Shown: piece after piece, positions 7,166 to 51,974 of the stretch
Layout: every line of letters begins with the position of its first letter
Numbering within the stretch: position 1 is the stretch's first letter
From: Halalkaliarchaeum desulfuricum
GTDB lineage: Archaea > Halobacteriota > Halobacteria > Halobacteriales > Haloferacaceae
Assembly (NCBI RefSeq): GCF_002952775.1
Contig: NZ_CP025066.1
Coordinates: forward strand, 1,674,001-1,738,000
Length of the DNA: 64,000 nt
Reading direction: 5' to 3'
The notes under the pieces: generated by a model
The model's input: the letters and a program-made list of their open reading frames with translations, nothing else
Database searches by the model: none
What the model was told of the DNA's origin: nothing
Translations under genes and position numbers: made by a program

Positions 7166-7376
7166 TTATGCTTGGTCTACGGAGGTGGTGGTACTTGTCC
7201 CTGCCGACGGAACGGTCGCTCTGTGTGCCTCATCGGCCAGCATGACACGGTGATTGGACCGGGATCTCGCGATGGGGCGAAGACGAAGGGGACCCCTCCC
7301 GGGCGCCGTTCACCCGGGCGAAACAGCGGCTCGATGACGTGAGTGCGATCACAACCAAGAGGGGAAGCAGTTGCGG
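7166..7376. other. Junction between helicase operon and membrane-protein element
   Basis: This is not convincingly coding on either strand. A short plus-strand frame near 7301-7360 (APFTRAKQRLDDVSAITTKR) looks like a gene remnant that I cannot identify. This is the probable left edge of the block that begins with a truncated subtilase. Confidence 0.35.
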
Positions 7377-7937
7377 ATGCCTCTCGTTCAGGCGGCGACG
7401 CGCTTCGTGAACTACCCGGCCTCGAGCGACCACACGATCGCCGTCGCCGCCACGACCGCAGAGCCGGCGCCCGAGGAGACCCGGTCGGCGTCGTTCTCGA
7501 ACGTCGGCCCGGCGCCAGGAACGGATGACTTCTCCGGCGGCGAGTCGGCCGGCGCCGAACCGGATCTCGGTGCGCCCGGCATGAAGCTGGCAGCGCTCCG
7601 CGGCACCACCAGCCAGACCACGTTCGAGGAGACACTCTCGGGCACGTCGATGGCGGCGCCGCTGGTGGCTGGCGGCGTGGCGGCCCTGCTGGAGTCGACC
7701 GGATCGATGGAGTTCGACGACCTCACAGACCGCCTCGAACGGACGGCACAGCCCGCCGAGCAGGTGGCCGAGGCAGAGGTCGGCGCCGGACTGCTGGACC
7801 TCGATGCAGCCGTCAGCGACGACGAGCGCGAGGAGACGCAGGCCGACGCGATGGACGACGAGGCCGTGACGCGCGACGAGGCGTTCCGCTCGGAGTCCGA
7901 CTGGCGCGGACGCCCCTTCCTCGGAGTGTTCGACTGA
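7377..7937 (+). pseudogene. Subtilisin-like protease, C-terminal fragment lacking Asp and His
   Basis: The 186-residue frame begins MPLVQAATRFV and quickly enters subtilase sequence (NYPASSDHTIAVAATTAEPA), passing through DLGAPG to the catalytic serine box SGTSMAAPLVAGGVAALL. The N-terminal region with the catalytic Asp and His and the oxyanion Asn is missing, so it cannot be an active subtilase. The stop overlaps the next ATG (TGATG), so it is still coupled to the downstream Tat protein. It could be a truncated gene at the element border or a domain kept for another use. Confidence 0.8.
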
Positions 7938-8671
7938 TGCTCTCGCGGAGAGAGTTGCTCGCCGGGACAGCCGCAGCGCTGGCCGGGACGATCGGCCTCT
8001 CCTCTGCGGGCGCCGCCGTCGACTACGAGGGCGTTCCCGACGATGTCGAGCTGACGTTCGACGAGGAGTGGCTCGAACGCTACCAGCCGGCGCTGATTAA
8101 GTCCTCTGACGGCCGGCGCCGGTCGGTCGGGCTGTTTGCCTATCGCGCCACGAAGGAGGACACAGACACGGAGGTGGCCTGCTACTGGCACCGCCTGACC
8201 CACCAGGACGGGCTGCCGCTGATCGGCTCCGATGGCCATCTGTACGATCACGAGCCCGCGTACGTGTTCGTCGAGGATGGCGCCGTCGAGGAGGTGGTCT
8301 TCACCGGCTACCACCACTTCGCCAGCTCGATCGAGGGCGACCGCCTCCACGATCACCTCGTCGCGAACCACACGAGCGAGGCCACCCATCCCGTGCTGGA
8401 GGTCGTGGATCCGTGGCATCACTACGACGCCGTCCGGGCGAGCGACTCCGACGAAGGCGAGCGAGCGTTCCTCGCGCTCGAGGACTTCACCGCGGCGGAG
8501 TCGAGCTGGCGCGCGAACGACATCTGGGAGGCGACAGCGTCGGAGGCAGTCTACGATCCGCACTCGATGCGGGATCGCGACTCCTGGTGGGACGAAGGAA
8601 CGTTCGACTACCGCATGGCCAGCCTGTGGCGCCGACTCGATCGCCGCCTCGGCTGGTACGGGAGCCCCTGA
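7937..8671 (+). CDS. Tat-exported protein of unknown function, 244 aa
   Basis: The N-terminus MLSRRELLAGTAAALAGTIG is a clear twin-arginine signal followed by an alanine-rich hydrophobic stretch and a cleavage-like AGAA. The mature part is acidic and rich in W, Y and H (CYWHRLTHQDG, YHHFASSIEGDRLHDHL, VVDPWHHYDA), which suggests a folded extracellular domain, possibly metal binding. The ATG overlaps the upstream subtilase stop and is followed after 2 bases by a small membrane protein gene. Family not recognised. Confidence 0.8.
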   Translation: MLSRRELLAGTAAALAGTIGLSSAGAAVDYEGVPDDVELTFDEEWLERYQPALIKSSDGRRRSVGLFAYRATKEDTDTEVACYWHRLTHQDGLPLIGSDGHLYDHEPAYVFVEDGAVEEVVFTGYHHFASSIEGDRLHDHLVANHTSEATHPVLEVVDPWHHYDAVRASDSDEGERAFLALEDFTAAESSWRANDIWEATASEAVYDPHSMRDRDSWWDEGTFDYRMASLWRRLDRRLGWYGSP

Positions 8672-8673
8672 AG

Positions 8674-8928
8674 ATGGCACGGAAGGAGGCGAGCAAGCGG
8701 CTGCTCCTGGGGATCGTGTACCTGCCGGTGTACTACTTCATCCTGTACCCGGTGGTGTTCTTCCTCGGCGTCCTCGTGACCGCCGTGGACATCCTCTGGA
8801 CGATCGTGTTCGGCGAGTCGCTGGGGCTCGTTCCGGCGTGGTCCTCGTCCACCTGGGAGTCGATCTCCCAGCCCGTGACGTGGATCTTCGGAGGCTCGCG
8901 ATCCGACAAACCCAGCTGGATGTTCTGA
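8674..8928 (+). CDS. Small membrane protein, 84 aa
   Basis: Starts MARKEASKRLLLGIVYLPV. It has one long or two closely spaced hydrophobic segments (residues about 9-45, YYFILYPVVFFLGVLVTAV) and a Trp/Ser-rich tail. It begins 2 bases after the Tat protein stop and its own stop overlaps the next ATG (TGATG). Probably a membrane component of the element's envelope or transfer apparatus; function inferred from context only. Confidence 0.75.
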   Translation: MARKEASKRLLLGIVYLPVYYFILYPVVFFLGVLVTAVDILWTIVFGESLGLVPAWSSSTWESISQPVTWIFGGSRSDKPSWMF

Positions 8929-9032
8929 TGACCATGCACTTCACAACGACCTGGCGCGGCATGGGCGGAGGGATCCCACCGCCTGTTGTGCCGCCTCCCG
9001 ACAACCGACAGGCCGGTCGCATCGCCCGCTAA
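8928..9032 (+). CDS. Tiny Gly/Pro-rich protein, 34 aa
   Basis: MTMHFTTTWRGMGGGIPPPV and a proline-rich continuation, ending RIAR. The start overlaps the previous stop (TGATG), arguing for translation. No family recognised; the polyproline stretch suggests a protein-protein contact peptide. Confidence 0.5.
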   Translation: MTMHFTTTWRGMGGGIPPPVVPPPDNRQAGRIAR

Positions 9033-9059
9033 CCGACTGCTGATCTATTCCAACACACC

Positions 9060-10097
9060 ATGAAACTCCCGAAGAGAAGCCTCATCGCGCTGGTTCTGGC
9101 GGTGCTTGTGCTGGGCGCCGGAGCGACCGTCGTCGCGGCCGAAGTCACGGCACCGTCAGTCACCGCAGACTCCGACCTGGACGAAGGAGTCACCATCGCG
9201 AACTTCAACGCTGACGCCGAGGAGAACAGTACACTCGAGATAGCAACGGACACCGCAGATGACATCGAGGTTGCCGATGTCGAGATCGAACTCGCCGACG
9301 AGGATCGCAACCTGACGGCCTACACGGCTGACCTCGATGCCGACGAGTACGAGCTGGTCGAGGAGGACAACGCCGATGGCGAGGACATCCACGCCTGGAC
9401 GATCGACCACGACGAGTTCGAGGAAGTGCCGATGGCGATCGACGAGCAGGTCGACATGGACGTGACCGTCACGATCGAAGACGCTGACGGCGCCACCGCC
9501 GACACCGAGTTCACCTTCACGCTCGAGAACGACGACGAGCGCACCGTGATCTACGTCGACGAGGTCGCCGAAGACGACGGTGATGTCGGCCCGAGCGTCG
9601 ACACGGAGACGCACGAGGCCAGCTGGTTCGCTGCGAACATCCTCGGTGAAGACGACCAGACCATCCACCAGATCGAGGAGGAGCGCGAAGTGAACGGCTC
9701 GGCAACTGATGTCGAGATCTACTTCGCGGACGACGCGGCTGACTCCTTCGACGACTCGGTGACCGAGGACGCCGACACCGAGGACATCCTCGCCGACCAG
9801 ACGATCCTCGTCGACGGTGACCTCGCGTTCACCTTCCTCGATGAGGAGAACAGCGACTACGTGTCCTCGGACGACACCTACGCAGTCTATGATGACTCGG
9901 CCGACCAGATGACGATCAACCTCGGCGACGAGCAGGACAGCAACATCGCGGCTGATGTCCACGTCGCCTCCGAGTCGCCGTCCGTGAGTGAGGAGGTCGC
10001 CACCGCCGACATCTCGGACGCGTTCGCGGATGACCTCTCGTTCATGGAGATCCGCGCCAACTACGGCCTCGCGCCGGCCATCCGCGCGCTGATCTAG
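9060..10097 (+). CDS. Secreted, very acidic surface protein, 345 aa
   Basis: The N-terminus MKLPKRSLIALVLAVLVLGA is a Sec signal with cleavage near VVAAEV. The mature chain is dominated by D and E, with beta-rich spacing similar to halophilic surface and spike proteins. There is no PGF-CTERM and no C-terminal membrane anchor, so it may be held by the neighbouring membrane proteins. It ends 9 bases before the next gene, with the ribosome site aggagg between them. Known families not recognised. A spike or S-layer-like role is inferred from signal, composition and position. Confidence 0.75.
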   Translation: MKLPKRSLIALVLAVLVLGAGATVVAAEVTAPSVTADSDLDEGVTIANFNADAEENSTLEIATDTADDIEVADVEIELADEDRNLTAYTADLDADEYELVEEDNADGEDIHAWTIDHDEFEEVPMAIDEQVDMDVTVTIEDADGATADTEFTFTLENDDERTVIYVDEVAEDDGDVGPSVDTETHEASWFAANILGEDDQTIHQIEEEREVNGSATDVEIYFADDAADSFDDSVTEDADTEDILADQTILVDGDLAFTFLDEENSDYVSSDDTYAVYDDSADQMTINLGDEQDSNIAADVHVASESPSVSEEVATADISDAFADDLSFMEIRANYGLAPAIRALI

Positions 10098-10106
10098 GAG
10101 GCCAGA

Positions 10107-10349
10107 ATGGGCCTGCTTGAAGCGCTGGGTCGGGTCGTCCTCGGTATCGTCCTGTACCTCATCCAGCTCCTGATCGCGTTCCCGCTGATGCTGCTCATCG
10201 CAGCGTACTTCGTCCTCGACGTGCTGCTGGTCGCGATCGGTCGCGATGGACTCGACAGCGGGGACTTCATCAAGGAGATCTGGTTGTGGTACGTCGGCAA
10301 CGCCGAGTACGTCTTCTTCGGCGACGGCAGCTGGGACTGGACACCATGA
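10107..10349 (+). CDS. Small membrane protein, 80 aa
   Basis: Starts MGLLEALGRVVLGIVLYLIQ, with two hydrophobic segments separated by a short turn, then an amphipathic Trp-rich tail (IWLWYVGNAEYVFFGDGS). It resembles the 84-residue protein at 8674 in layout, though not closely in sequence. A strong aggagg precedes the ATG. The stop overlaps a 10-codon mini-ORF (10346-10378) that carries the ribosome site of the next gene. Confidence 0.75.
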   Translation: MGLLEALGRVVLGIVLYLIQLLIAFPLMLLIAAYFVLDVLLVAIGRDGLDSGDFIKEIWLWYVGNAEYVFFGDGSWDWTP

Positions 10350-10382
10350 CCAACAACCCCACTACTCAACGGAGGTGAACAC

Positions 10383-10547
10383 ATGGACACACGATTCCTG
10401 CTGCGCTGGGCAGTCGCGGTCGTCCTCGCGGTGATCGCGCTGTCGCTGGTCCTGGGCTTCTTCGCGATCTCGCCGCCGATCGGCGGGACGCTCGGGATCG
10501 TTCTGGTCGCCATCGCGGTGTACCTGCTGATGCAGCGACGCGAGTGA
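10383..10547 (+). CDS. Small two-helix membrane protein, 54 aa
   Basis: MDTRFLLRWAVAVVLAVIAL plus a second helix (GTLGIVLVAIAVYLLMQRRE). The ribosome site ggaggtg lies 5-11 bases before the ATG and inside a 10-codon ORF ending at 10378, so translation may be coupled. It is the last gene before the tRNA-like region. Confidence 0.7.
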   Translation: MDTRFLLRWAVAVVLAVIALSLVLGFFAISPPIGGTLGIVLVAIAVYLLMQRRE

Positions 10548-10569
10548 CGACCGATCATCCGCCATTTTT

Positions 10570-10726
10570 GCCCGCTCGTGGCCGAACACGGCTCGAGTAC
10601 TCCGGATTTTGATACCACATCCGGTGATCCGGGGAGTCAACGAGGTGAGATTGCCAGCCTCTCGCGGGGCGCTCCCCGGCCGGTGGAACCGGTCGTGTGC
10701 TGCGGGTTCGATTCCCGCTGCGGGCA
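10570..10726 (+). ncRNA. Structured tRNA-like sequence with T-arm, upstream of 10735
   Basis: At the 3' end is a canonical T-arm: stem GCGGG (10702-10706), loop TTCGATT, stem CCCGC (10714-10718), then GCGGGC (10720-10725), which can pair with GCCCGC at 10570-10575. In between are several good hairpins: ACTCC/GGAGT around 10600-10637, GGGG-CGCT-CCCC near 10667-10678, and CCGGT-GGA-ACCGG near 10680-10692. It is not a normal tRNA: the D-loop GG is missing and the length is 157 nt. It ends 8 bases before the next ATG. Possible meanings are a tRNA pseudogene, an integration scar, or a processing or packaging RNA. Confidence 0.4.
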
Positions 10727-10734
10727 TCGAGACC

Positions 10735-11019
10735 ATGTCGAAAGCAGACACCTCTGACGAACTGGTTCCGGTTCACGTCGTCGCCTACGAGAAGAATGCC
10801 GATCTCGAGATCGACAACAGCGGCGAGGACGCGACGGTCGTGAACCACGACGAACTGGTCGACAAAGGGCAGACGTATCAGGAGATCCGGGCACTCGCTC
10901 GCAGTGCTGCCGAAGAGTACGATCTGGATATCGTAGAGCCTGGCGATCCGCTCTGGGATGACCGCTTCAACGATCTCGAGTCTGGCGACTCGTGGCGCCT
11001 CGAGGAGATTCGCGGCTGA
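10735..11019 (+). CDS. Acidic hypothetical protein, 94 aa
   Basis: Starts MSKADTSDELVPVHVVAYEK. It is a soluble, acidic protein with no cysteines or membrane segments and a short helical region (YQEIRALARSAAEEYDLDIV). Together with the lipoprotein at 11170 it forms a two-gene insert between membrane-protein genes of the block, flanked by tRNA-like structures on both sides. Function unknown. Confidence 0.65.
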   Translation: MSKADTSDELVPVHVVAYEKNADLEIDNSGEDATVVNHDELVDKGQTYQEIRALARSAAEEYDLDIVEPGDPLWDDRFNDLESGDSWRLEEIRG

Positions 11020-11169
11020 GAGGGATCAGCAGAGATTTGCAGAGTTACTGTTAGCTAGTATAGATGTTGAGATCATCGTGCGAGATGTAGAGGGTGAATG
11101 CAACAGACGGTGAAGACGCTCTCAAAGAGAAGTTATTTGGTATTCGTGGAGGTAGATAGAACACCTCCG

Positions 11170-11730
11170 ATGGCTTCGCCCTCCTCTCGGCGAGATGTAA
11201 TTACGTTCGCAGCGGTGATCGGACTTCCCGGTCTCAGCGGGTGTCTCTCACTGACTGACGAGACGGAGTCGGTGGAACTACTCTACATCATGCTGACGAC
11301 GAACCTCGTGCAGGAGCAAGAGATCAAGTTAGAGGTAGTTTCAGGACCTGACCACCATTTCAGCATGACCGTGGAAATGCCGCCGATCGGAACGGACAGT
11401 TCCGAAGTACCCGGCACAACGACGACCAGCCAGTTCATGATCGTTCCCGATACGAGCGATCTCACCGTCAATTCCGTACTCAGGGCACGCTATCCAGATG
11501 CGGATTCGTGGGTCGAAACTGCCCTCACAGACGCGGATCATCGCCACGTCGCGGGGTGGATCACGTTGTGGTCGCCCGCACCGACAGTCGAGTACGTCGA
11601 GTACCCGGAGAAGCCGAATCAAGAATCAGGAGCGGTCGAAGGTGCTGGAATAACGGTGAGCGAAGCGGAAGAATTCGTCGACTCGTTTATGAAAGAGCAA
11701 GCAGACCGAGACTACACGGTTGACGATTGA
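11170..11730 (+). CDS. Tat/lipobox lipoprotein, 186 aa
   Basis: The start MASPSSRRDVITFAAVIGLP is followed by a lipobox LSGC, giving a twin-arginine lipoprotein anchored by its cysteine. A longer start at 11098 exists, but the Tat motif fits the ATG at 11170. The mature domain is beta-rich with no recognised family. It is probably cargo rather than part of the core membrane module, since codon use and spacing differ from its neighbours. Confidence 0.7.
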   Translation: MASPSSRRDVITFAAVIGLPGLSGCLSLTDETESVELLYIMLTTNLVQEQEIKLEVVSGPDHHFSMTVEMPPIGTDSSEVPGTTTTSQFMIVPDTSDLTVNSVLRARYPDADSWVETALTDADHRHVAGWITLWSPAPTVEYVEYPEKPNQESGAVEGAGITVSEAEEFVDSFMKEQADRDYTVDD

Positions 11731-11859
11731 TGAACTGAAACTCGTCTCTTACATCTGCGGCCGGTTATATTCGCGCCGCCCATCTTGCACACCGTCTCTG
11801 ACAACTTCTGAATAGCTCTGTTGCTAACCTATGGACTGCTTCGGTTCCGATGAAACGAC

Positions 11860-11968
11860 GCCCACGATGGCGTAGTCAGGTTCGATCCCTGGCGTGGGCT
11901 TCCCCCGGCTCCGGGGGGCGAAACCGGGCGATCCCCATCCTGACGCCTGCCGGCGGCGTCCCTTTTGC
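11860..11968 (+). ncRNA. tRNA-like minihelix followed by two hairpins and a T-run
   Basis: GCCCACG (11860-11866) pairs perfectly with CGTGGGC (11893-11899). Between them, after a 9-base linker, is a T-arm with stem TCAGG/CCTGG and canonical loop TTCGATC. D- and anticodon arms are absent. It continues with a 6-bp hairpin (CCCCCG-GCTC-CGGGGG, 11902-11917) and a terminator-like hairpin (GACGCC/GGCGTC, 11942-11960) followed by ccTTTT. The whole could be a small stable RNA with its own terminator. Acceptor stem plus T-arm is the known minimal substrate of RNase P. Whether it is expressed is not known. Confidence 0.45.
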
Positions 11969-12031
11969 CCAGTAGTCGGCCATCGTCGTGGCTCATCCGA
12001 CACCCCTCTCTTTTCCCCTACCCGCTTTCGA

Positions 12032-12071
12032 GTCCGCTAGGAGCAGCTCGGTTCGACTCCGGGCGCGGACG
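12032..12071 (+). ncRNA. tRNA-like minihelix directly before start codon of 12074
   Basis: GTCCGC (12032-12037) pairs with GCGGAC (12065-12070). After an 8-base linker comes a T-arm with stem CTCGG/CCGGG and loop TTCGACT. As at 11860, the D- and anticodon arms are missing. The structure ends 3 bases before the ATG at 12074, so it would form the 5' leader of the downstream operon. It may be a processing signal, a translation control element, or a remnant of a tRNA-gene integration. Confidence 0.45.
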
Positions 12072-12073
12072 TT

Positions 12074-12298
12074 ATGGCCACCCCAGTAGACTGGCTCCGC
12101 GAACTGCTGAAGGACGGCATCGGGCAGCACAGCCCGGGCGACCAGATCACCGCCGGGTTGATCCTCGGCGCCGTGATCATCGCGACCTCCGCGGTCGGTC
12201 TCGTCGGGACGCTGCTGCTGATGCCGATCCCGATCCTGATGGCCGGCTTCGGGATCCTGCGGCTGTCCAGCACCGTCGACCAGCTGTACCCGCTGTAA
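12074..12298 (+). CDS. Small membrane protein, 74 aa
   Basis: Starts MATPVDWLRELLKDGIGQHS, then two hydrophobic helices (ITAGLILGAVIIATSAVGLV and TLLLMPIPILMAGFGIL). There is no room for a Shine-Dalgarno between the tRNA-like minihelix and the ATG, so translation would be leader-structure dependent or leaderless after cleavage. It is the first gene of a run reaching 16180. Confidence 0.75.
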   Translation: MATPVDWLRELLKDGIGQHSPGDQITAGLILGAVIIATSAVGLVGTLLLMPIPILMAGFGILRLSSTVDQLYPL

Positions 12299-12309
12299 GG
12301 AGAACTTGC

Positions 12310-13224
12310 ATGAACCGAACGCATGGATGGGGACTGCTGTTGCTTCTCGTAGTCGTCCTGTGTGGCGGCCTCGTCGCGGGGGTGAGCGCAGACGAGACGG
12401 TGACGCAGATCGACGCCGATCACGAGCTGGCGACCGAGGAGACGATCCAGACGTACCACGCCGAGGGCGTCGTCTCCGGCGATGCCGAGCAGATCCAGCT
12501 CACGCTGACAGTCGCTGAATCCGCTGACGATGTCGGTATCGACCGGACGGCGCCGCTCGACTGGCGCAACGACTACCTCCGCCTCGAGTACGACGAAGAA
12601 ATCGACCGCACGGTGCGCGTGTTCATCCCCGCCGAGATGGTGACGCCGTACACCCGAGAGGGTGTCGAGGCGCTGAACAACTCGCACACCACGTCGTTCG
12701 AGCCGATCCGCGATGGGGAGTTCCTCGCGGTGACGGTCGTCCTCGAGGGAGAGGACACGGTTGTCTTCCCGCTGGACAAGAGCGCGTCGGCCTCCTACGA
12801 TATCATGGACAGAGCGAACGACCGCGTCGAGCGGGCGACCGGCATCTCGCTGTCCGGTGACGAGGAGTGGACGTACGTCGACGGTGACGACATGGCCGGC
12901 CACACCGTGATCGAGCTGGAGGCGGACCCCGACGCCGTCGAGATCCAGTTCGACGCCCGCCACGGACAGGCCGACGAACTGTGGGTGACGATGCCCGAAG
13001 GCGACGATCCGCGGGCCGAGGTCTACTGGTACTACTCGAGCAGCGACGATCTCGTCTACATCGTGCCGAAGGCGGAGGATCCGCCAGCCGTCCGCTACAA
13101 GACGGAGGCGACGTTGCGGGATCGGATCGATGGCGCCGTCAACGATGCCCGACAGCTCGCAGAGAATCTGCGAGACCGGCTGTCGCTGCCGTGGACCGAC
13201 TCCGAGGAGGTGACCACGCCATGA
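12310..13224 (+). CDS. Signal-peptide protein, possibly membrane-associated, 304 aa
   Basis: Real start MNRTHGWGLLLLLVVVLCGG with a Sec signal (cleavage near GVSADE) and ribosome site aaggag 7 bases before. The mature part is an acidic beta-rich domain (WRNDYLRLEYDEEIDRTVRV, VTVVLEGEDTVVFPLDK). The C-terminal region ends with a short helix-forming segment (DGAVNDARQLAENLRDRLSL). The stop overlaps the next start (ATGA). Family not recognised; an extracellular component of the element is inferred. Confidence 0.75.
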   Translation: MNRTHGWGLLLLLVVVLCGGLVAGVSADETVTQIDADHELATEETIQTYHAEGVVSGDAEQIQLTLTVAESADDVGIDRTAPLDWRNDYLRLEYDEEIDRTVRVFIPAEMVTPYTREGVEALNNSHTTSFEPIRDGEFLAVTVVLEGEDTVVFPLDKSASASYDIMDRANDRVERATGISLSGDEEWTYVDGDDMAGHTVIELEADPDAVEIQFDARHGQADELWVTMPEGDDPRAEVYWYYSSSDDLVYIVPKAEDPPAVRYKTEATLRDRIDGAVNDARQLAENLRDRLSLPWTDSEEVTTP

Positions 13225-13427
13225 TATTCATCAAGCCAGACATTCAGATGGGACCGCTTACTGGATCGCTGTGGATGCTGTTTCTGATCCTGGTCGCGAT
13301 CGGCGCCCTGGGGACCGTGACGATGCCCGGACTGATCGTCTGGGTTCTGGCTGCGTTCATCCTGGTTGCAGCGCTGTGGATCATCGGCCGACGCATCCTC
13401 GGTTGGGGTGCAGGGAGGCGGATGTAG
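13221..13427 (+). CDS. Small membrane protein, 68 aa
   Basis: MIFIKPDIQMGPLTGSLWML, with two transmembrane helices and a basic tail (GRRILGWGAGRRM). It overlaps the previous gene by 4 bases (ATGA) and abuts the next ATG. One of a series of two-helix proteins in this block. Confidence 0.75.
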   Translation: MIFIKPDIQMGPLTGSLWMLFLILVAIGALGTVTMPGLIVWVLAAFILVAALWIIGRRILGWGAGRRM

Positions 13428-13688
13428 ATGCTGTACGAACTCGTCCTCGCCGGCTTCGCGATCGTGCTGACGTGGCTGTGGGTCCGCAAGAATCCGGAGA
13501 CGGCAGAGCGCACCTACGGCTGGCTCGAGCGATCGCGGAAGGTCACTGGATCGATCATCGTGATCCTGCTGGCGTTTACGTTCCTGCAGTCTGGCGTGGT
13601 GCTGCTGCAGGTGGTTGCGATCGTGATGCTCATCCTCGGCGCCCTGTACTTCTTCGTCGAGCGACCGGACCAGCGGGTGATCTCCTGA
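13428..13688 (+). CDS. Small membrane protein, 86 aa
   Basis: MLYELVLAGFAIVLTWLWVR, then a charged loop (KNPETAERTYGWLERSRKV) and two further hydrophobic stretches. It starts directly after the previous stop and its stop overlaps the next start (TGATG). The charged linker between helices suggests contact with a soluble partner such as the downstream ATPase; this is inference. Confidence 0.75.
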   Translation: MLYELVLAGFAIVLTWLWVRKNPETAERTYGWLERSRKVTGSIIVILLAFTFLQSGVVLLQVVAIVMLILGALYFFVERPDQRVIS

Positions 13689-14152
13689 TGCTCGATCGCA
13701 TCACGCGCCTCGAGCAGAACGTCCGCTACATCCTCGAGTCCGACGCTGTCGACTTCGAGGACAAGCAGGACGCGAGCGCAAAACTCGAGGAGATCGACCA
13801 GCTGGCCGGGCAGATCCACCGCGACAAGCCGTTCGAGCGCTTCCTCCAGCAGTACATCGCACGGGCTCACCGCGACTATCAGAGTGGCGACCGCGAGGAG
13901 CCGCTGTGTCGCTGTTCGTACGCCGAGTGCGACCTGAAGCAGGGACGGCTGCCCGGCAGGGTGCGGACAGCCGACTCGCTGCAGGGTGGGATCGACGAGT
14001 TTCAAGAGCGCCATCCCGAGAGTGTGGTCCTCCTCGAGGCCCGCGAGGAGTGGCTTTCGGTGATCGGCGAGTACCGCCAGATCCTGCGCGAGGTCTACGC
14101 CGATCTCGAGCAGGCACGAGCTGAAGCCGAACCGCGATACAAGAAGGTGTGA
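13688..14152 (+). CDS. Soluble helical protein, 154 aa, with Cys cluster
   Basis: Starts MLDRITRLEQNVRYILESDA. It is mostly alpha-helical and charged, with CRCSYAEC in the middle, a possible zinc site, and a long C-terminal helix (EYRQILREVYADLEQARAEA). It lies between a membrane protein and the ATPase, 3 bases before the latter's ATG. An adaptor role between ATPase and membrane is plausible but not shown. Confidence 0.7.
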   Translation: MLDRITRLEQNVRYILESDAVDFEDKQDASAKLEEIDQLAGQIHRDKPFERFLQQYIARAHRDYQSGDREEPLCRCSYAECDLKQGRLPGRVRTADSLQGGIDEFQERHPESVVLLEAREEWLSVIGEYRQILREVYADLEQARAEAEPRYKKV

Positions 14153-14155
14153 CCG

Positions 14156-16180
14156 ATGCAACGAACGCTCACCTACGCCGAGTGGCGCTCGGAGCGGAAG
14201 GCGAAAGAGCAGACCTGGGACGAACGCGAAGATGTCCGGACGGCGATCGACGCCGGGATCGCCGCCACGATGCGAGAGCCACCCGACGAGCAGCTGCTCG
14301 AAAGAGCCGTCGAGAGACTGGCAGAACTGCTGGTCGGGTCGGACGGACGGTTGATCGACTACTACTCTCGCGAGATCACCCACAACGACCAGTACCCGCT
14401 TGCCGCACTCCGGGCGGTCGCGACGGGGCAGCCACGGGTTCGAGACTACGAGTTGGCGCTGGACGCGCTGATCGCGATCGCCGACCACGAAGGCATCACC
14501 GAGGATGTCTCGAACCACGCGGAAGCCCGCGGGTTCGAGCTACCGATGGGGCGTGTCTGGTCGTCCTACGAGATGGAGTACGGCGACGAGATTCGCATCG
14601 TCTCGCGAAACTCCGGGTGGCCGAAGACGCTGTTTTGTGGCGATACCGGCCAGGGGAAAAGCGCGACGCTGGACGGAGCAGTCGCCGATCGCTACGCCAG
14701 CGGGATGAAGATCGTCGACCTCGTCGACACCGACGAGTTCGAGTCCGGCGTCTACGACATCCCGCAACGACAGCCAGCGCTCCGTGATGCGCGACGCGAC
14801 CTCGAGCTGCCGGCCGGCGCCGATGTGATGGACGACTTCGACGCGCCGGACCTCGAGATCCTCGTGCCGCTGACACCCGAGACCGCCTCGATGGACGTTC
14901 CCGTTCCGGAAGGTGCAGATGTCGACGACTCGGTCGTACGGCCGTTCACGATCCCCGCATCGGATCTCGACGAGACGACGCTCGTGTCGTTCCTGACAGC
15001 GCTGGTGTCGAAGCAGCAGGAAGCCTCGATCCGGACGGCCTACAACGCGGTCGCCGAGGGTGACTGGACGCTGCAGGATCTCGCCGAGCAGATCGCGAAA
15101 CGCGATGACCTGCAGGACTCCTACCAGCGACGCGTCCTCCGCTTGCTCGAGGATCTCCAGTCGAAGGGATTCATCCGCGATCAGGACTGCGAGTACGCCA
15201 TCGACTGGGACGACATCTTCTACGACACCGACACCGTCACGGCGTTCTCCGTGGCACCGCTCGAGGAGATCGACCAGCTGATGGTGCTGTCGTACCTCGT
15301 CCGGGCGCTGTACGACGAGCGAACGTCGCGGACTGAGTTGCCGGCGTGTGCCGGCGTCGCCCGTGAGCTGCACGAGATCGTCCCACACCGCGAGGAGGCC
15401 GCCGCCGACGCTCGTGCCGAGGCACTCCAGGGGGCGATCGCGTCGAACCTGTCGTACATCCTCCGGAAGAACCGTCACGAACGCCTGGAGATCCTCGCCG
15501 ACACCCAGGACGTGATGGATCTCAAGAAGGGCGTCCGGCTGCGGTTCTCCCGGTTCGTCGCCTTCCAGATGCCCGATCGGAGCCTGAAGAGCTGTTTCGA
15601 ATACGCTGGGGCGAGCGGCTTCGACTCGTGTCGCAACTCGATCGGGCCCGAGGCCGGCGTCGGCGCCGTGATCGGGATGAGCGAGGCAGCCATCGAGTAC
15701 GAACGCGACTTCATCTCGCCGGTCCAGTTCGCTCCGGCGCCGTTCCACCACTTCGACGTCGACGAACACGACTCCGGGTTCGACGCCCGGTGTGACTATC
15801 TCGACGAGGATCTGGTGCCTGTGCCGTGGCTCGGCAGCGTTCCCGACCGACTGTGCTTCGGCGTCGGGGATGTCGCTGGCGAGGAGATCGCAGAAGGATC
15901 GCCGTACCAGGAGTTCGCCGAGGAGTGCCTCGAGCGAGGCCCAGGGAAGACGGTGGTCAAGCGCGATGTCATCGACGCGTACAACAACTTTGCCGAGGAG
16001 CGAGGCTACGACACCGTTGGTGTGCGCTGGTTCCTCCGAAAGTTCCGCAAGCAGACCACCGACGAGTGGGAACTCGAGTCGTACTCTGAGCGGAAGTACG
16101 ACGGCGTCGAGTTGACGCAGGCTGGCCAGCAGTACCTTCCGAGCGGTGGCGCAGACACAGAGATGGCGTCGGGAGACTAA
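14156..16180 (+). CDS. FtsK/HerA/VirB4-like DNA-translocase ATPase, 674 aa
   Basis: The N-terminal 150 residues are helical. Walker A is GDTGQGKS at residues 162-169 inside GWPKTLFCGDTGQGKSATL. Later come a region typical of HerA/VirB4-type ATPases with conserved acidic residues (ACAGVARELHEIVPHREEAA) and a sensor-like motif ADTQDVMDLKKGVR followed by RFSRFVAFQMPD. The C-terminal part has winged-helix character (NFAEERGYDTVGVRWFLRKF). Such ATPases pump DNA or drive secretion at membranes. It is the only energy-coupling protein of the block and is flanked by membrane and secreted proteins, suggesting DNA transfer, packaging into vesicles or virions, or secretion. The first domain is unlike known families. 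Confidence 0.8.
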   Translation: MQRTLTYAEWRSERKAKEQTWDEREDVRTAIDAGIAATMREPPDEQLLERAVERLAELLVGSDGRLIDYYSREITHNDQYPLAALRAVATGQPRVRDYELALDALIAIADHEGITEDVSNHAEARGFELPMGRVWSSYEMEYGDEIRIVSRNSGWPKTLFCGDTGQGKSATLDGAVADRYASGMKIVDLVDTDEFESGVYDIPQRQPALRDARRDLELPAGADVMDDFDAPDLEILVPLTPETASMDVPVPEGADVDDSVVRPFTIPASDLDETTLVSFLTALVSKQQEASIRTAYNAVAEGDWTLQDLAEQIAKRDDLQDSYQRRVLRLLEDLQSKGFIRDQDCEYAIDWDDIFYDTDTVTAFSVAPLEEIDQLMVLSYLVRALYDERTSRTELPACAGVARELHEIVPHREEAAADARAEALQGAIASNLSYILRKNRHERLEILADTQDVMDLKKGVRLRFSRFVAFQMPDRSLKSCFEYAGASGFDSCRNSIGPEAGVGAVIGMSEAAIEYERDFISPVQFAPAPFHHFDVDEHDSGFDARCDYLDEDLVPVPWLGSVPDRLCFGVGDVAGEEIAEGSPYQEFAEECLERGPGKTVVKRDVIDAYNNFAEERGYDTVGVRWFLRKFRKQTTDEWELESYSERKYDGVELTQAGQQYLPSGGADTEMASGD

Positions 16181-16260
16181 TCAGAGGGCTAGCAGAGACC
16201 GTAGAACAAAACCCGCAGACTCGGGCACGAACCGGGACGGCAGAACAACTCAACACCCGG

Positions 16261-16318
16261 TATATCTCTTCGTACTCTCGTACGTTTCGGGCGCGTATTG
16301 GACCGGGAGCGATCCCGG
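16261..16318 (+). promoter_or_regulatory. TATA box and hairpin leader for the 16345 operon
   Basis: TATATCT at 16261-16267 lies about 80 bases before the ATG at 16345. The leader then carries a perfect hairpin CCGGGA-GCGA-TCCCGG at 16303-16318. The gap from 16181 to 16344 is the largest within this half of the block, consistent with a second transcription start. Confidence 0.45.
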
Positions 16319-16344
16319 CGCCGATCGAACGAGGTTAATTCCTT

Positions 16345-17316
16345 ATGTACGCTAAAATCAAGGAGTCACTCGGACGGATCAAACCGAACAGTCGCCTCCC
16401 CGACGACGAGGAGGCGCGAACGCCAGACGAGGAGATCGACCTCGAAGAGTGGAGCTCGACCACGTCGATCGGCCTCGGCGAGCGGCTCAAACGAAGCGCG
16501 CGCACGTTCGCGACACTTGGCCTGCTCGGCGTAGCCATCATCGGGATCCTGTGGGCATGGGGCAGCCAACTCGCGATCGGACTGTTCTCGAACGTGGTCG
16601 TACAGGCCGGCACCGTACTCTTGGGAACGTTTGCGACCGGACTGCTCGTGGGAATCCAGCATCAACGCGGCGTGATCACCCGCTCCGACTGGCTGATCCT
16701 CTCGACCAGCGAGGGCGTGACGCCGTTCCTCGGGGAGTTCCACACCAGCGAGGACGGGACGAACGTGTTTGTCCCCTATCGGGGGTTCGACTTCCTCGGC
16801 GATCGGGCGCGGCCGCTGTACCTGCGCGAGTTGGGCGAGGACGTGGCGCGCTCGCACGCGAAGAAGGGTCGTAACCCGGAGGATCCCGTCCGGATCCGCG
16901 TCGACGACGGGATGGTGCAGGTGCGAGACACCGCCTACGGGACGGTCGTGTCGGTGATCTCCGGCGGCCTCGAAGTCGATGCGTTCGGTCGCTACTCGGA
17001 CGTGTTTTGCACCCCGCCCGAGCAGGTGACCGCCGAGAACTACCGCCAGCTGAAGGACCAACTCGAGATGTACCTCCAGCGCGATCTCCCGAAGCTCAAA
17101 CGCGAAAACGAGATGCTCGAACAGCAAGTCGAGAACCTCCGCGACCGGCTGCGACAGAGTACCGACGAAGAGATCAACCAGTTCATCGATCGCCTCGCCC
17201 GTGTGCAGGAGGTCTCGAACCCGCACTCGAACGGCCAGAGCGGGCAGGAGCAGACGAACGGCAAGGGCACGGCGACGATCAAGGAACTCGAGGATCGCCT
17301 GGAGGCGTTCGAATGA
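16345..17316 (+). CDS. Membrane-anchored coiled-coil protein, 323 aa
   Basis: Residues 50-100 contain two hydrophobic helices (FATLGLLGVAIIGILWAW and VVVQAGTVLLGTFATGLLVG). Then follows a mixed domain (VRIRVDDGMVQVRDTAYGTV) and a long C-terminal coiled coil (DLPKLKRENEMLEQQVENLR). Its stop overlaps the next ATG (ATGA). The layout of two helices plus a cytoplasmic coiled coil is typical of assembly or scaffold proteins of secretion or virion systems. No database family recognised. Confidence 0.75.
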   Translation: MYAKIKESLGRIKPNSRLPDDEEARTPDEEIDLEEWSSTTSIGLGERLKRSARTFATLGLLGVAIIGILWAWGSQLAIGLFSNVVVQAGTVLLGTFATGLLVGIQHQRGVITRSDWLILSTSEGVTPFLGEFHTSEDGTNVFVPYRGFDFLGDRARPLYLRELGEDVARSHAKKGRNPEDPVRIRVDDGMVQVRDTAYGTVVSVISGGLEVDAFGRYSDVFCTPPEQVTAENYRQLKDQLEMYLQRDLPKLKRENEMLEQQVENLRDRLRQSTDEEINQFIDRLARVQEVSNPHSNGQSGQEQTNGKGTATIKELEDRLEAFE

Positions 17317-18833
17317 AGCGACTCGTCCTCACTGCGCTGGTTGTGCTGGTCCTCGTCGGGATCCCGGCGGCCGCCGCGGTCGACGACGTCCAATCGGCAG
17401 AGTTGGAGATCGATCAGCCGCACTACATCGACGATCGTATCGTCACCGACGACAGCGGGACCGTCACGCTGTACGAGGCCAGCGGCCCAGAGTTGCTGCT
17501 CACGCTCGAGAACGTGAACGGCAGCGTCGTCGACTACGGCGTCGAGGAGGATGGCGGCGCCCTGAAGCGTCATCCCGACCTCGACGCGTGGGTCTTCGAG
17601 GCAGAGGCCGACGCGACCTACTCGCTGTGGTGGGCGGTCGAAGAGACGCAGGTGATCGAGGAGGATAACGAGACCACGACCGAGACCGTCGAGACGCGCT
17701 ACGAGGCCCGCCTCCGCGTCGACCAGACGTCGATGCAGCACTACGAGACTGGCGTCGTCGAAGACATCCGCGAAGACGCCCAGTCGTGGCAAAACTGGGA
17801 AGACGCCGTCCAGTCCGAGCGGATCGCAGGCACCGACGCCGACATCGAAGAAGAGACCGACGCAGCGCTCGGCCTGCTGCGGCTCCGGCACAACCCGATC
17901 GAGGCGCTGACCGGCGACTTCACCTCGCTCCTGCTTACCCTGTTCATCACCCTCTCTGGACTGGTGATCGTCGCGATGGCGGTCGGCGCCCACCTGTGGA
18001 GCCGGCGCCAGGACATCATCGAGCAGCGACGCCGCCGCAAGCTCGACGCCGAGCGGGCCGACCTCGAGGAGCAGCTCGACGCGATGGAGGCCCACGAGCG
18101 GCAAGCCGCGCTCGAGGGGCTCGACTGGAACGACATCTTCCCCGACGATGTCGCCCGCGCGTTCCGGGAGACCCTCGGCGAGACCGTGTTGGACGGGTGG
18201 TTGACGATCCAGCCGGCGCTCGACCCCGAGTATCTGCTTCGCGATCGGTTGCGTGCGATGAGCGACACCCACGTCGCCGTTCGCGAACCCGTTTCGGACG
18301 GTGGTGGAGAAAGTGAGTCAGACCGGACGTTTGAATGGGCATCTTGGCGGCTCGAACCCCGGGGATCGCGTCCCGAAAACCGGGCTTCAGAAGTCCGGGA
18401 GTTGGATGATCCCGATCAGGACGTGATCGAGGGCATCTCGCTCGACGATCCGGAGCTGGTCGCGTTCGATCTGTCCGAGCACGCCGATCGGGACTTCGAG
18501 ATCGAAGTCGATGTCGACGAACTCGTGTCGCGACTCGATATCGACCTGCGTCGCGACTTCGACGAGGATCCAGAACTGGTCGCGAAGTACCTCACCGAGT
18601 TCCTGCAGTCGGTCCTCGATCACGACTACACCGATCGCGACGGTCGCGTCCGGCCGGTGCGACACGCCCTAAATCTGTGGCTACGAGCGCTGCGGCACAT
18701 CGGCGAGCGGGAGGGCGTCCCGACCGCTCGGTATCAGGCCCAGCACGTCGAGATGCTGCTGCGAACCTACGACCGCGAAGAGGAGATTGCCGACTGGGTG
18801 GACCGGGTCGAACTCGGGCAGGTGCAGGAGTGA
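17313..18833 (+). CDS. Signal peptide, one-pass membrane and helical cytoplasmic protein, 506 aa
   Basis: Starts MKRLVLTALVVLVLVGIPAA, a Sec signal. Residues about 30-200 are an extracellular beta-rich domain (WVFEAEADATYSLWWAVEET). A transmembrane helix follows (FTSLLLTLFITLSGLVIVAM), then basic residues and a coiled coil (RRRRKLDAERADLEEQLDAM). The rest is a large cytoplasmic helical region. The topology of extracellular domain, one helix and long cytoplasmic part makes it a candidate bridge between the surface and the ATPase. Confidence 0.75.
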   Translation: MKRLVLTALVVLVLVGIPAAAAVDDVQSAELEIDQPHYIDDRIVTDDSGTVTLYEASGPELLLTLENVNGSVVDYGVEEDGGALKRHPDLDAWVFEAEADATYSLWWAVEETQVIEEDNETTTETVETRYEARLRVDQTSMQHYETGVVEDIREDAQSWQNWEDAVQSERIAGTDADIEEETDAALGLLRLRHNPIEALTGDFTSLLLTLFITLSGLVIVAMAVGAHLWSRRQDIIEQRRRRKLDAERADLEEQLDAMEAHERQAALEGLDWNDIFPDDVARAFRETLGETVLDGWLTIQPALDPEYLLRDRLRAMSDTHVAVREPVSDGGGESESDRTFEWASWRLEPRGSRPENRASEVRELDDPDQDVIEGISLDDPELVAFDLSEHADRDFEIEVDVDELVSRLDIDLRRDFDEDPELVAKYLTEFLQSVLDHDYTDRDGRVRPVRHALNLWLRALRHIGEREGVPTARYQAQHVEMLLRTYDREEEIADWVDRVELGQVQE

Positions 18834-18838
18834 TCGCG

Positions 18839-18988
18839 ATGAAGGGCACCTACCACATCACCATCGAGACTGAGATTGATCCCAACCGTCTGGACGAGTG
18901 GTTGGATGCTAACGTGCCGGAAGAGAATCTCGTTGATGTCGACAGGGTTGACACCGACACAGCAAGCAGTTCGGGAGGAGAAAGATGA
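18839..18988 (+). CDS. Small acidic protein, 49 aa
   Basis: MKGTYHITIETEIDPNRLDE, ending SSSGGER. It starts 5 bases after the previous stop and overlaps the next start (ATGA at 18985). Tight spacing argues for translation. No family recognised. Confidence 0.6.
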   Translation: MKGTYHITIETEIDPNRLDEWLDANVPEENLVDVDRVDTDTASSSGGER

Positions 18989-20808
18989 TCCTGCAGGTCA
19001 ACCCCTCGGTCCCGGCGATCACCACCGAGCAGTTCCTGGTGGGCGTGCTGCTGCTTGCGGCGGCGTTCGCGATCACGGCGGTCGTGGCGCTGCGGCTGCG
19101 GTACACCGGCCTCGACGACCACGAGGCGGAGGTCGTCGCCTCCGTTCGGCGCCAGCTCGCCGCCCGATCGCCGGGGACGGTGCGGATCAGCCGCGATGAG
19201 GACCTCGAGGCCCGTCGCGAGGACATCCGCCGGGCGTTCGACGCGACCGGCGCCGTCGAGGACGTGGTCACCCTCCGGCAGGCGTACCGCTCGATCCGCG
19301 CACAGGCCGGCGAGGCCGCCCGGCCGTACCTCGAGATCGTCCCGCGACCGGCACGACGGTTCGCAGCGCTGGCGGTGGTGGTGCTGGTGTTCGGCACCGT
19401 CGCCGTCGCGAGCGAGACGCTCTACCAGTGGCTGCTCGTCGAGACGCGGCCTCTGGCGCCCGAGGAGTGGCCCATGCTTGCGATCACGGAGTCGCAGGCA
19501 GCGCTGTCGATCCTGCAGGTGTGGATCGCAGCGACGCCCGTGATCGGCGCCACGGCCGAGTGGCTGTTCGTGATCGGCGTCCTCGTCGGCGAGTGGGTGT
19601 ACCGCCGCCCGTGGCTCTTCGGCGTGCTGCTGCTCGCCGTCGCCGGTCGGATCGTGCGGTTCGATCGAGCCGGCGCCGAGCGGGTGGCGTTCCCGCTGCC
19701 GACGCCGACGCTGGTCGCGAAGCTCGCCGCCGGCATGATCGGCGCCGGATGGGTGGCGGCGATGCTCGTGATCGGCGCCGCACGGGTGGTCGCCGCCGCC
19801 GAGCCAGCCTACTGGGGCGCGCTGGTGCTGGTCGGCGTCGGCCTGTGGATCCTGGTGACCGCCGGCTACGCTGCAGTCCGGGCGGGGTCGGCGATCCTCG
19901 AATCGTACCGGCAGGCAGCCGACGACGACACCCGCGGTCGGCTGCTCGTCCGGCTGATCGGCATCGGCCTCGCCGTGATCGTGGCGCCGGTCGTCCCGGT
20001 CTGGGTCGTGGTCGCGATCGGGAGTCTGCCCGAGCTGGTGGGCGCCTTCCTCGTCGCCGAGACGGCTGTCCAACTGCTGGTCGTCCTCGTCGCGCTGGGA
20101 GTGGTCGCTGCCGGCGTCTACGTCGTCCGCGAGGCGACCGACGACGTGCAGGCAGCGCTGCGGGAAGTCCTCTCGAGGCGGGGCTGGCAGGCGGCCGTGT
20201 TCGGCCGCGCCGTCCCGCTGGGTCTGGTCGTCCTCGCGTACCTCCTCGCGCGTCCGTGGGGCTTCGGCCGGCCGGCGAGCGTCGTGATCGGCGTGGTCGT
20301 CGGGGTCGCTGCAGCTGGGCTGTGGCAGCTGTCGCTGCGGCTTCGCGATCGCGTCGAACTGTCCGAGGCCTCGAACGCGGCACACGAGGTCGTGGTCCAC
20401 GCATATCGAGTTGAAACGAAGGGGTCATGTCAGCATCTCGCACGCATCAACGGAACGCTCGTCGCGGCGCCCGACCAGGAGGGGCCGGTCGATGCAGTCC
20501 TCGAGCAGTGCCGCGAGGCGTTCCGCGACGAACGCCGCCGGCCGACGGTGGGCTCGGCTCACGCCAGGATGCTCACCGAGGACGGTATCGTCGATCCAGC
20601 CGAAACAGAACGACGGCTCAGAGCCGAGGCACGAAGCTGGATTGAAGGGACAGTGCATCGGGAGTACGGCGTCGACTACGATCGACTTGCCGACCGTCTC
20701 GAGCGCCAGGTGCCGCCAGAGATCGCACAGGAGGAACTCGATCGGGCGCCGAAGAGCCCGACCACGCCAGTCCAGTATCGAAAGGGACTGTTAGTGCCAT
20801 CGTCCTGA
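18985..20808 (+). CDS. Large polytopic membrane protein, 607 aa
   Basis: An N-terminal helix (FLVGVLLLAAAFAITAVVAL) is followed by a cytoplasmic segment, then at least nine further hydrophobic helices between residues about 125 and 455 (for example ALAVVVLVFGTVAVASE, LLVRLIGIGLAVIVAPVVPV, VIGVVVGVAAAGLWQLSL). The C-terminal 140 residues are soluble and charged (CREAFRDERRRPTVGSAHAR). It is the last gene of the block. A polytopic protein next to a DNA-pumping ATPase suggests the membrane channel of the system; this is inference. Confidence 0.8.
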   Translation: MILQVNPSVPAITTEQFLVGVLLLAAAFAITAVVALRLRYTGLDDHEAEVVASVRRQLAARSPGTVRISRDEDLEARREDIRRAFDATGAVEDVVTLRQAYRSIRAQAGEAARPYLEIVPRPARRFAALAVVVLVFGTVAVASETLYQWLLVETRPLAPEEWPMLAITESQAALSILQVWIAATPVIGATAEWLFVIGVLVGEWVYRRPWLFGVLLLAVAGRIVRFDRAGAERVAFPLPTPTLVAKLAAGMIGAGWVAAMLVIGAARVVAAAEPAYWGALVLVGVGLWILVTAGYAAVRAGSAILESYRQAADDDTRGRLLVRLIGIGLAVIVAPVVPVWVVVAIGSLPELVGAFLVAETAVQLLVVLVALGVVAAGVYVVREATDDVQAALREVLSRRGWQAAVFGRAVPLGLVVLAYLLARPWGFGRPASVVIGVVVGVAAAGLWQLSLRLRDRVELSEASNAAHEVVVHAYRVETKGSCQHLARINGTLVAAPDQEGPVDAVLEQCREAFRDERRRPTVGSAHARMLTEDGIVDPAETERRLRAEARSWIEGTVHREYGVDYDRLADRLERQVPPEIAQEELDRAPKSPTTPVQYRKGLLVPSS

Positions 20809-24538: not shown

Positions 24539-25711
24539 TCAGCCCGCGGCCACAGCCTGTGACGCCGGCACACCAACTCCATTCATCTTGAGTCTCCACC
24601 GACGCCGTAACTCTGCTTCCAGTTCGTGTCGAATCCAGTCGCAGAACGTCTTGAACGTGAACTCCTCGGGCAGGTCGCGCCCGCCCCGCCGCGGGCGGGC
24701 GACGACCGCCCATCGCAGCACCAACCACAGATTCTCCAGCAGCGCTGCAACGAGCATGATCGCAAACCGCACGACGGGATCACGTGTCGTCGTGATCCCT
24801 CGTGCTTGCCGAAGCAGTCGGTAGCTCGTTTCGATGCCTGATCGCTTTCTGTAGAGGCGTTCGACCTGCTTTGCTGATCGATCAGTCACGCCGCAAGCCA
24901 CGTAGCCTCGGACAACCTCGCCGTGCTTGCCCCGATTACCGTTCTGGTAGGAAACAGCGACCGCGAGCGGGAAGCGCAGTTCCCGCTCGCTGTCCTTGTA
25001 CATGCGGTAGGTCGTCATGTACGACTTGTGGACGTCGAGTTTGTCCTTCATCCGCTCACCCTTCTTGGGGACGTGAACGACCGTTGCAGCGATCTCACGA
25101 GACCGGCGGATGACGCGCTCGTTGTAGAAGCCGCTGTCGGCAAGCAAAAGATCGATCTCGAACGGATAGTTCTCGACGCGGGCGAGCACGCGCTCGACCG
25201 CGTCGGCCTCGTCTTCGTCGTTGCGGACGAACGTCATCGCCAGAGTCACCGGCTTTTCGTTTGAGACAACGTATGCCGTACAGTACCGATGGCACGTGGT
25301 CGTGCCATCTTTCGGAGCCATCGAGCAGAGTTCACCTTCATCGACGTAGTGATCACCGTGGTAGGGATTGTCGATGAAGTCGATGGAGACGATTCTCGAC
25401 CCAGACCGGTCGAGAATCGTCATAGCAAGGCGTTTAAGCAGGAGGTTAGCGACGACTTCGAGCCACTCACGGTTGAGGGTGTGGAGCCACGTGAGGGTGG
25501 TGTCGTCACATGGCGTTCCGTCGGTGTCTTTGCAGGTTTCCCAGATCGAGGTCTCGTTGACGCAGGCTAATATGACGACGAGCCAGATGTCGCCGGGGTC
25601 GAGGGGGCTCCCCTCGACACCCGGCAACGGGAGTGGAGTGATGACTTCTTCCGCTACATCTTTGACGTCCGATGCCGAAAGATAACCGTCTGGTTCGGGG
25701 ATCTTGAACAC
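24539..25711 (-). mobile_element. ISH3-family transposase, apparently intact, 390 aa
   Basis: A DDE transposase starting MFKIPEPDGYLSASDVKDVA. The catalytic positions fit IVSIDFIDNPYHGDHY (first Asp), DLLLADSGFYNERVI (second Asp) and RKRSGIETSYRLLRQ (Glu of the YREK-like box). The C-terminus shows ENLWLVLRWAVVARPRRGGR, typical of the ISH3 group. Length is full and no stop interrupts it. It lies next to a cut integrase gene at 25764, so this copy or its ancestor probably disrupted that gene. Terminal repeats not defined. Confidence 0.88.
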
Positions 25712-51898: not shown

Positions 51899-51974
51899 AG
51901 CCAAGGGCCGGATTTGAACCGGCGTTGGGCGGCTCTGCAGGCCGCTGCGTCTGACCGGACTCTGCCACCTTGGC
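51899..51974 (-). tRNA. tRNA-Cys (GCA)
   Basis: Acceptor stem GCCAAGG/CCTTGGC (51968-51974 and 51900-51906), anticodon stem GCGGC/GCCGC with loop CTGCAGA (anticodon GCA), T-arm GCCGG-TTCAAAT-CCGGC, discriminator U. CCA is not encoded. The 3' end faces the MCM operon, which makes this gene a probable attachment site of the integrated element. Confidence 0.95.

Follow-up and report, generated by a model that had tools for sequence, protein, structure and literature searches.

What is a tightly packed block of 18 open reading frames (ORFs), most of them hard to name, doing on the chromosome of a haloarchaeon? The block lies at 7377-20808 of a 64,000-nucleotide stretch of Halalkaliarchaeum desulfuricum (contig NZ_CP025066.1, positions 1,674,001 to 1,738,000), which we call the window; the replicon is a 3.3-Mb chromosome. 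Our analysis suggests that the block is probably a mobile plasmid, defective and integrated in the chromosome, that is related to pR1SE of Halorubrum lacusprofundi but has a second kind of packaging cluster. Plasmid pR1SE and its 40 relatives, the apHPVs, are haloarchaeal plasmids that spread, or may spread, in plasmid vesicles which they encode themselves (Lucking et al. 2023; PMC10818511). They carry two clusters, ORF6-9 and ORF17, 21, 23, 24 and 25, which are separated by a variable region, and synteny within the clusters is identical in all complete elements. The cluster-1 proteins and most core cluster-2 proteins have been located in pR1SE vesicles, and ORF25 has been proposed to load the plasmid (PMC10818511).

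A relative of the plasmid-vesicle region of pR1SE

We number the ORFs of the block g1 to g18 in order. A tblastn search with g2 matched 18 haloarchaeal plasmid records, including ORF8 of pR1SE (41% identity, 5e-42). The ATPase g14 and the membrane protein g16 matched only four plasmids and not pR1SE; gene order on these four is identical to that of the window. We call the pR1SE kind of cluster 2 type A and that of the window type B. When profiles of five type-B members were compared with those of five type-A members, one-to-one best matches resulted for ORF8 (P=100), ORF9 (P=100), ORF17 (P=94), ORF20 (P=98; the gene is absent from the window), ORF22 (P=95), ORF23 (P=69), ORF24 (P=95) and ORF25 (P=96), where the numbers ORF18-22 were assigned by counting back from ORF25 on the pR1SE record. 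On these matches we regard the block as homologous to the plasmid-vesicle region of pR1SE, a similarity that the initial annotation had raised as a possibility and that tblastn (ORF8) and profile comparison confirm. The cluster-2 matches, including the window's ORF24 and ORF25 counterparts, were found by profile and not by plain sequence search. Cluster 2 of the window is homologous to that of pR1SE, yet strongly diverged and rearranged. The ORFs, all on the plus strand, are as follows.

7377-7937, plus: g1, truncated ORF7 (subtilisin-like S8 protease) of which only the C-terminal part is left (Peptidase_S8 3.6e-15, profile positions 163-288 of 288)
7937-8671, plus: g2, ORF8 homologue with Tat signal (tblastn to pR1SE 40.9% identity, 5e-42; profile P=100)
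8674-8928, plus: g3, small membrane protein with weak likeness to g5 (hidden Markov model E=3e-4)
9060-10097, plus: g4, ORF9 homologue, acidic, secreted (profile P=100, E=3e-50)
10107-10349, plus: g5, small membrane protein, conserved after ORF9 in type B (locus comparison)
10383-10547, plus: g6, small two-helix membrane protein (sequence features)
10735-11019, plus: g7, small acidic protein, variable region (ORF)
11170-11730, plus: g8, lipoprotein-like protein, variable region, lower GC content at third codon positions (ORF)
12074-12298, plus: g9, two-helix membrane protein (sequence features, locus comparison)
12310-13224, plus: g10, ORF17 counterpart, secreted (profile P=94, E=1e-7)
13221-13427, plus: g11, small membrane protein in the ORF18 position (position; best yet weak profile match is ORF18)
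13428-13688, plus: g12, two-helix membrane protein in the ORF19 position (position; conserved in type B)
13688-14152, plus: g13, soluble protein in the ORF21 position (conserved in all type-B loci)
14156-16180, plus: g14, HerA-like ATPase, ORF25 counterpart, C-terminal winged helix (profile P=95.9 over 448 columns to ORF25)
16345-17316, plus: g15, two transmembrane segments and a coiled coil, ORF22 counterpart (profile P=94.7)
17313-18833, plus: g16, signal peptide, ectodomain, one transmembrane segment and cytosolic domain, ORF23 counterpart (profile P=69, best match; order)
18830-18988, plus: g17, small ORF (ORF call)
18985-20808, plus: g18, polytopic, about nine transmembrane segments, ORF24 counterpart (profile P=95.3 over 175 columns)

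The two-helix proteins of cluster 2 and g13 were matched to pR1SE ORFs by position only. ORF9 has been described as an S-layer-like coat. The fragment g1 is 46-49% identical to C-terminal parts of ORF7 in three other loci (L021, L038, L022) and is the sole ORF of the 18 that is not intact.

The initial annotation had described about 17 same-strand, tightly spaced genes for a set of membrane and secreted proteins, and this picture holds well. Most of the ORFs overlap or are spaced by less than 30 nt, with wider gaps at 8928-9060, 10547-10735, 11730-12074 and 16180-16345. Short proteins with one or two helices (g3, g5, g6, g9, g11, g12) and signal peptides (Sec-type in g4, g10 and g16, Tat-type in g2, lipoprotein-like in g8) are all present, as are the coiled-coil, bridge and polytopic proteins it had listed (g15, g16 and g18). 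The GC content at third codon positions is mostly 0.75-0.95 and about 0.63 in g8. Pfam and PHROGs scans agree with the earlier statement that the block proteins include no capsid, terminase, relaxase, tail or portal family; a terminase match of g14 reached only E=0.034. These databases name little beyond the g1 protease and, in g14, a HerA central domain below the cut-off and a primase-type winged helix. Conserved gene order in other haloarchaea had been proposed as a check, and it recurs at 17 other loci, which is why we do not regard the block as a chance arrangement. The word "undescribed", however, suits only part of it: cluster 1 (ORF7-9) is part of the described pR1SE/apHPV set, whereas cluster 2 of the window is not described in PMC10818511.

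The translocase-type ATPase with Walker A motif GDTGQGKS also stands: it is g14, with the motif at residues 162-169. The protein may belong to the HerA-FtsK superfamily (HerA, VirB4, TrwB, archaeal virus packaging NTPases): it has a Walker A motif and a DUF87-like central region, shares with ORF25 conserved arginine-rich and DTQ motifs, and its profile match to ORF25 supports the assignment. It differs in scoring below the Pfam cut-off for DUF87 (E=6e-4, 20.4 bits against 23.2), in its own N-terminal region and in its exchangeable C-terminal DNA-binding domains; the PHROG primase C-terminus matches at 5e-6. A profile search of PDB sequences gave chance matches only, and pattern scans with the single window ATPase gave no match. 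Type-A and type-B ATPases differ in the P-loop (PRxGKDST in type A, GxTGxGKS in type B) and in the C-terminal domain. The C-terminal domains vary inside type B as well, as would be expected if each ATPase recognises its own plasmid.

Like the apHPVs, the window has cluster 1 (ORF7-9, with ORF6 in relatives), a variable region and homologues of ORF17, 22, 24 and 25, with a probable one of ORF23. Unlike them, type B has an optional AAA+/VWA gene pair, an undetectable ORF21 and a relocated ATPase, which precedes the ORF22-24 counterparts in all type-B loci, whereas in type A ORF25 comes last, after ORF24. Judged by these sequence differences, the second cluster is a distinct type B of vesicle-plasmid machinery.

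Type-B loci and the exchange of modules

How common is this second type? Among 392 genomes, one for each of 392 species of Halobacteria, ORF8 occurs in 41, the type-A ATPase in 27 and the type-B ATPase (E below 1e-80) in 15. In all 15 type-B genomes ORF8 lies on the ATPase's own contig. Two genomes carry both types, on separate contigs, and only two have ORF8 with neither ATPase, so that 13 genomes are type B only and 26 of the ORF8 genomes have type A. Counting each locus once yields 18 type-B loci, the window and 17 others, which include chromosomal copies as well as circular plasmids such as pNPA70 of Natrinema pallidum and one of 39 kb in Salinigranum rubrum. Their common order is ORF6-7-8-9 ... 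ORF17-g11-g12-g13-ATPase-(AAA+-VWA)-(ORF20)-g15-g16-g18, and deviations are local losses or truncated contigs. Type B is a real and widespread new variant. A published search listed 38 incomplete elements, 34 of them with cluster 1 only (PMC10818511); these "cluster-1-only" elements are probably mostly complete type-B elements.

The AAA+/VWA genes stand next to each other in five of the 18 loci and match Pfam AAA_5/CbbQ_C and VWA, the latter just under the cut-off in one of two tested proteins. An AAA_5/CbbQ_C ATPase beside a VWA protein resembles the MoxR/CbbQ-type AAA+ proteins with VWA partners; the difference is that the type-B pair is embedded in a plasmid-vesicle cluster. The window does not have the pair.

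In two genomes the g15-g16-g18 part is inverted relative to the ATPase (L042/L043 in G066, L116/L117 in G368) with the two halves convergent, possibly an invertible segment. In L044 (G050 contig 24), a type-A ATPase-like fragment (6603-7403, minus strand, 1.8e-55) lies immediately downstream of a complete type-B cluster, as if the element had recombined with the other type.

The two clusters seem to have separate histories. In the ATPase tree, types A and B form two clades with support of 100. In the ORF8 tree the type labels require 13 changes, compared with 13.7-14.0 for shuffled labels, and forcing type B into one clade is rejected (approximately unbiased test, p=3e-48). The window itself is a case in point: its ORF8 falls inside the clade of pR1SE (100/96), and its ATPase is type B. 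The DNA of two elements from one genus tells the same story. The type-A plasmid pHTUR05 and a plasmid-sized type-B contig (G360) are 85.6% identical along 3.9 kb that start inside ORF6 and stop where ORF8 ends, and share only short patches beyond; the clusters of G360 are adjacent only if the contig is circular, as we assume. The clean split of the types in the ATPase tree and their mixing in the ORF8 tree show that vesicle and packaging modules are exchanged between types.

tRNA-like minihelices between the modules

The region between the modules holds a further feature, which we noticed in the window and counted afterwards. In both element types, tRNA-like minihelices, each an acceptor stem and T-arm that lack an anticodon arm, are concentrated between ORF8 and ORF17. 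The window has three.

10702-10725, plus: tRNA-like T-arm hairpin, 9 nt upstream of the g7 ATG, poor acceptor partner
11860-11899, plus: tRNA-like minihelix, 7/7 acceptor pairs and T-arm, followed by a GC hairpin at 11901-11919
12032-12070, plus: tRNA-like minihelix, ending 3 nt upstream of the g9 ATG

On the coding strand between ORF8 and ORF17, T-arm hairpins with GTTCRA loops number 30 in 119 kb, against 14 in 690 kb elsewhere on it (two of which resemble real tRNAs); the opposite strand has 5 in 809 kb. An upstream 7-nt acceptor partner with at least six Watson-Crick pairs is present in 20 of the 30 (25% expected, p=2e-6; pairing was counted by script, as MAFFT misaligned the acceptor arms), GG occurs near the linker start in 16 of 20 short-linker cases, and an ATG follows 3-10 nt downstream of the hairpin in 16 of 30 (p=7e-8). 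About seven minihelices are followed by a strong GC hairpin. In an independent set of 20 type-A regions the variable region had 17 hairpins in 96 kb, cluster 2 had 2 in 148 kb, and the opposite strand had 4 in 244 kb. Proximity to an ATG was reproduced there (8/17, p=5e-4) and acceptor pairing weakly so (8/17, p=0.04); these counts are not fully independent, since elements are related and genomes overlap. A scan of 6-24 kb of the window with Rfam found no known RNA, and the main text of PMC10818511 does not mention tRNA.

The minihelices in the inter-cluster transcript are probably sites at which RNase P and tRNase Z would cut, separating the messages and leaving near-leaderless downstream mRNAs. 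The best precedent is the t-element of Haloferax, where tRNase Z cuts upstream of 5S rRNA (PMC4326828). In both cases a tRNA-like structure lies immediately upstream of an RNA end to be made; the minihelices differ in that the operons holding them are protein-coding and belong to mobile elements, and in that they precede start codons or GC hairpins. One could also argue that they are scars left where recombination or integration took place at tRNA genes. Their location is the part of the elements that is exchanged most readily, the 3' ends of tRNAs serve as targets of plasmid integrases, and the modest acceptor pairing in the second set would also fit. Yet scars would explain neither the strand specificity nor the paired acceptors, the GG and the nearby start codons, and we find this origin doubtful. 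That they are integration ends inside the block was set aside, since they are strand-specific and tied to start codons across elements.

The window copy and what its machinery may do

Can the window copy itself still form vesicles? ORF6 has no match anywhere in the window's genome, although a search with a similar ORF6 profile found the gene in 14 of the 17 other type-B loci, and of ORF7 only the C-terminal part remains. By the published apHPV definition the copy is incomplete: ORF6, an intact ORF7, ORF21 and the cluster-2 order are missing, and ORF8, ORF9, ORF17, ORF24 and ORF25 are present. That definition also asks that at least five of its authors' six HMM profiles score above threshold. 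It is a defective integrated copy and not evidently an active element. It lies in an island of about 82 kb, which runs from a tRNA-Cys (window position 51899) to a partial copy of the 3' end of this tRNA 30 kb left of the window.

1-51898, no strand: part of the island within the window, left end at about window coordinate -30022 (tRNA-Cys repeat, comparison with G004)
51899-51974, minus: tRNA-Cys, attachment site of the island (repeat, comparison with G004)
45463-47553, minus: plasmid-like MCM helicase on the tRNA side of the island (43% identity to the MCM of apHPV plasmid L023)
49293-50891, minus: C5 DNA methylase, likewise on the tRNA side (60.5% identity to its counterpart on apHPV plasmid L023)

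A tyrosine integrase adjoins the left end of the island (PF00589, 1e-14). In G004, a genome of the same genus, the DNA beyond tRNA-Cys corresponds to DNA at and past the far end of the island, and the block is mostly absent from species of the same genus and family. The island may be a single element or several nested in one another. The XPB-DUF790 genes at 4423-7165 were rejected as a core-genome left boundary, as G004 has only fragments of 68-74% identity at an unrelated place.

Additional partial copies of the tRNA-Cys 3' end occur at the site in both genomes (L061, G004:C2:287725-287911; G000:C1:1642357), which suggests repeated integrations at one tRNA. Other features of the window are an insertion sequence transposase at 24539-25711 (75% identity to an ISH3-like element on pR1SE), with a second DDE transposase of equal length further left in the island; a large secreted acidic protein with DUF7827, CARDB and PGF-CTERM (41641-44274, minus), related to one encoded upstream of ORF6 at the G013 type-B locus; an ORF with four HNH_repeat (homing endonuclease associated) units (44572-45405, plus), related to ORFs that lie upstream of ORF6 on two type-A plasmids, L024 and L027; and, outside the island, a perfect 23-nt inverted repeat (57988-58010 and 60041-60063, about 2 kb apart).

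What would an intact relative do? The secreted and Tat cluster-1 proteins (ORF6, the maturation protease ORF7, ORF8 and the coat protein ORF9) would give a membrane vesicle its shape and its coat. The plasmid would be recognised by the C-terminal DNA-binding domain of the HerA-type ATPase, which would drive the DNA into or across a membrane assembly made up of g15, the bridge protein g16, the polytopic g18 and small two-helix proteins, and thereby load it into the budding vesicle. The AAA+/VWA pair is probably an assembly or remodelling chaperone. Type B would do the job of pR1SE with another motor, and the window copy is most likely a defective member of this sister type, which would work like pR1SE when complete. 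Several points weigh against this account. Vesicle transfer has been demonstrated for pR1SE only and is extrapolated to type B. The similarity between g16 and ORF23 is modest, g13 has no similarity to ORF21 detectable by profile comparison, and the structure predicted for g14 from three sequences (mean predicted local distance difference test score, pLDDT, 39) is unusable as a fold. The ATPase could also serve secretion instead of packaging.

It is unlikely that cluster 2 is a contact-dependent, conjugation-like DNA-transfer channel or a protein-secretion channel, with cluster 1 making surface structures and not vesicles. An ATPase of the HerA/VirB4 kind together with bridge and polytopic membrane proteins would suit a channel, VirB4/TrwB-like folds have been noted for ORF25 and pilus-assembly-like ones for ORF23 (PMC10818511), and type IV pilin genes lie near several elements. 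However, the four type-B plasmids found first were typed as non-mobilizable and have no relaxase, and their cluster 1, which is exchanged between the types, is the one found in pR1SE, a plasmid reported to be transferred without cell contact (PMC10818511). Nor does the block have a relaxase family, by scans that covered the rest of the island in part. That the module is part of a pleomorphic virus or another virus of archaea, and the window copy part of a provirus, is very improbable: the ATPase has no match in 50,697 phage and archaeal-virus records, and a PHROGs scan found no virus hallmark family in the block. Two IMG/VR contigs classed as viral do carry the type-B ATPase and cluster, and few proteins suffice for vesicle-like virions, such as those of pleolipoviruses; further scans of viral contigs found nothing.

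The copy in the window could also have been domesticated, with the intact cluster 2 and ORF8-9 kept for a role in the host envelope or in gene transfer that does not involve plasmid packaging. We consider this quite unlikely. Despite the loss of ORF6, 17 of the 18 ORFs are intact, and chromosomal copies exist elsewhere too (G013, G066, G352, G368). But recent capture and slow decay would explain intact ORFs equally well, the copy sits in an island with an integrase, and its near absence from genus and family does not speak for a host function.

We give even chances to a more general picture: haloarchaeal vesicle plasmids would consist of two modules inherited independently, an exchangeable vesicle module working with either of at least two anciently separated packaging modules, with tRNA-like processing elements between them separating the messages, and most published cluster-1-only "remnants" would be complete type-B elements. 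The founding case of a plasmid that spreads virus-like in vesicles with its own proteins is pR1SE. Natural chimeras, in which closely similar ORF6-8 genes are combined with one or the other of two very different ATPase clusters, set particle formation apart from the loading of DNA and offer ready-made pairs for experiments. Type B raises the number of carriers by about half (13 genomes added to 26) and would alter how the published incomplete elements are read. If the tRNA-like elements are what they seem, archaeal mobile elements would here be putting the tRNA-processing enzymes of their hosts to a new use.

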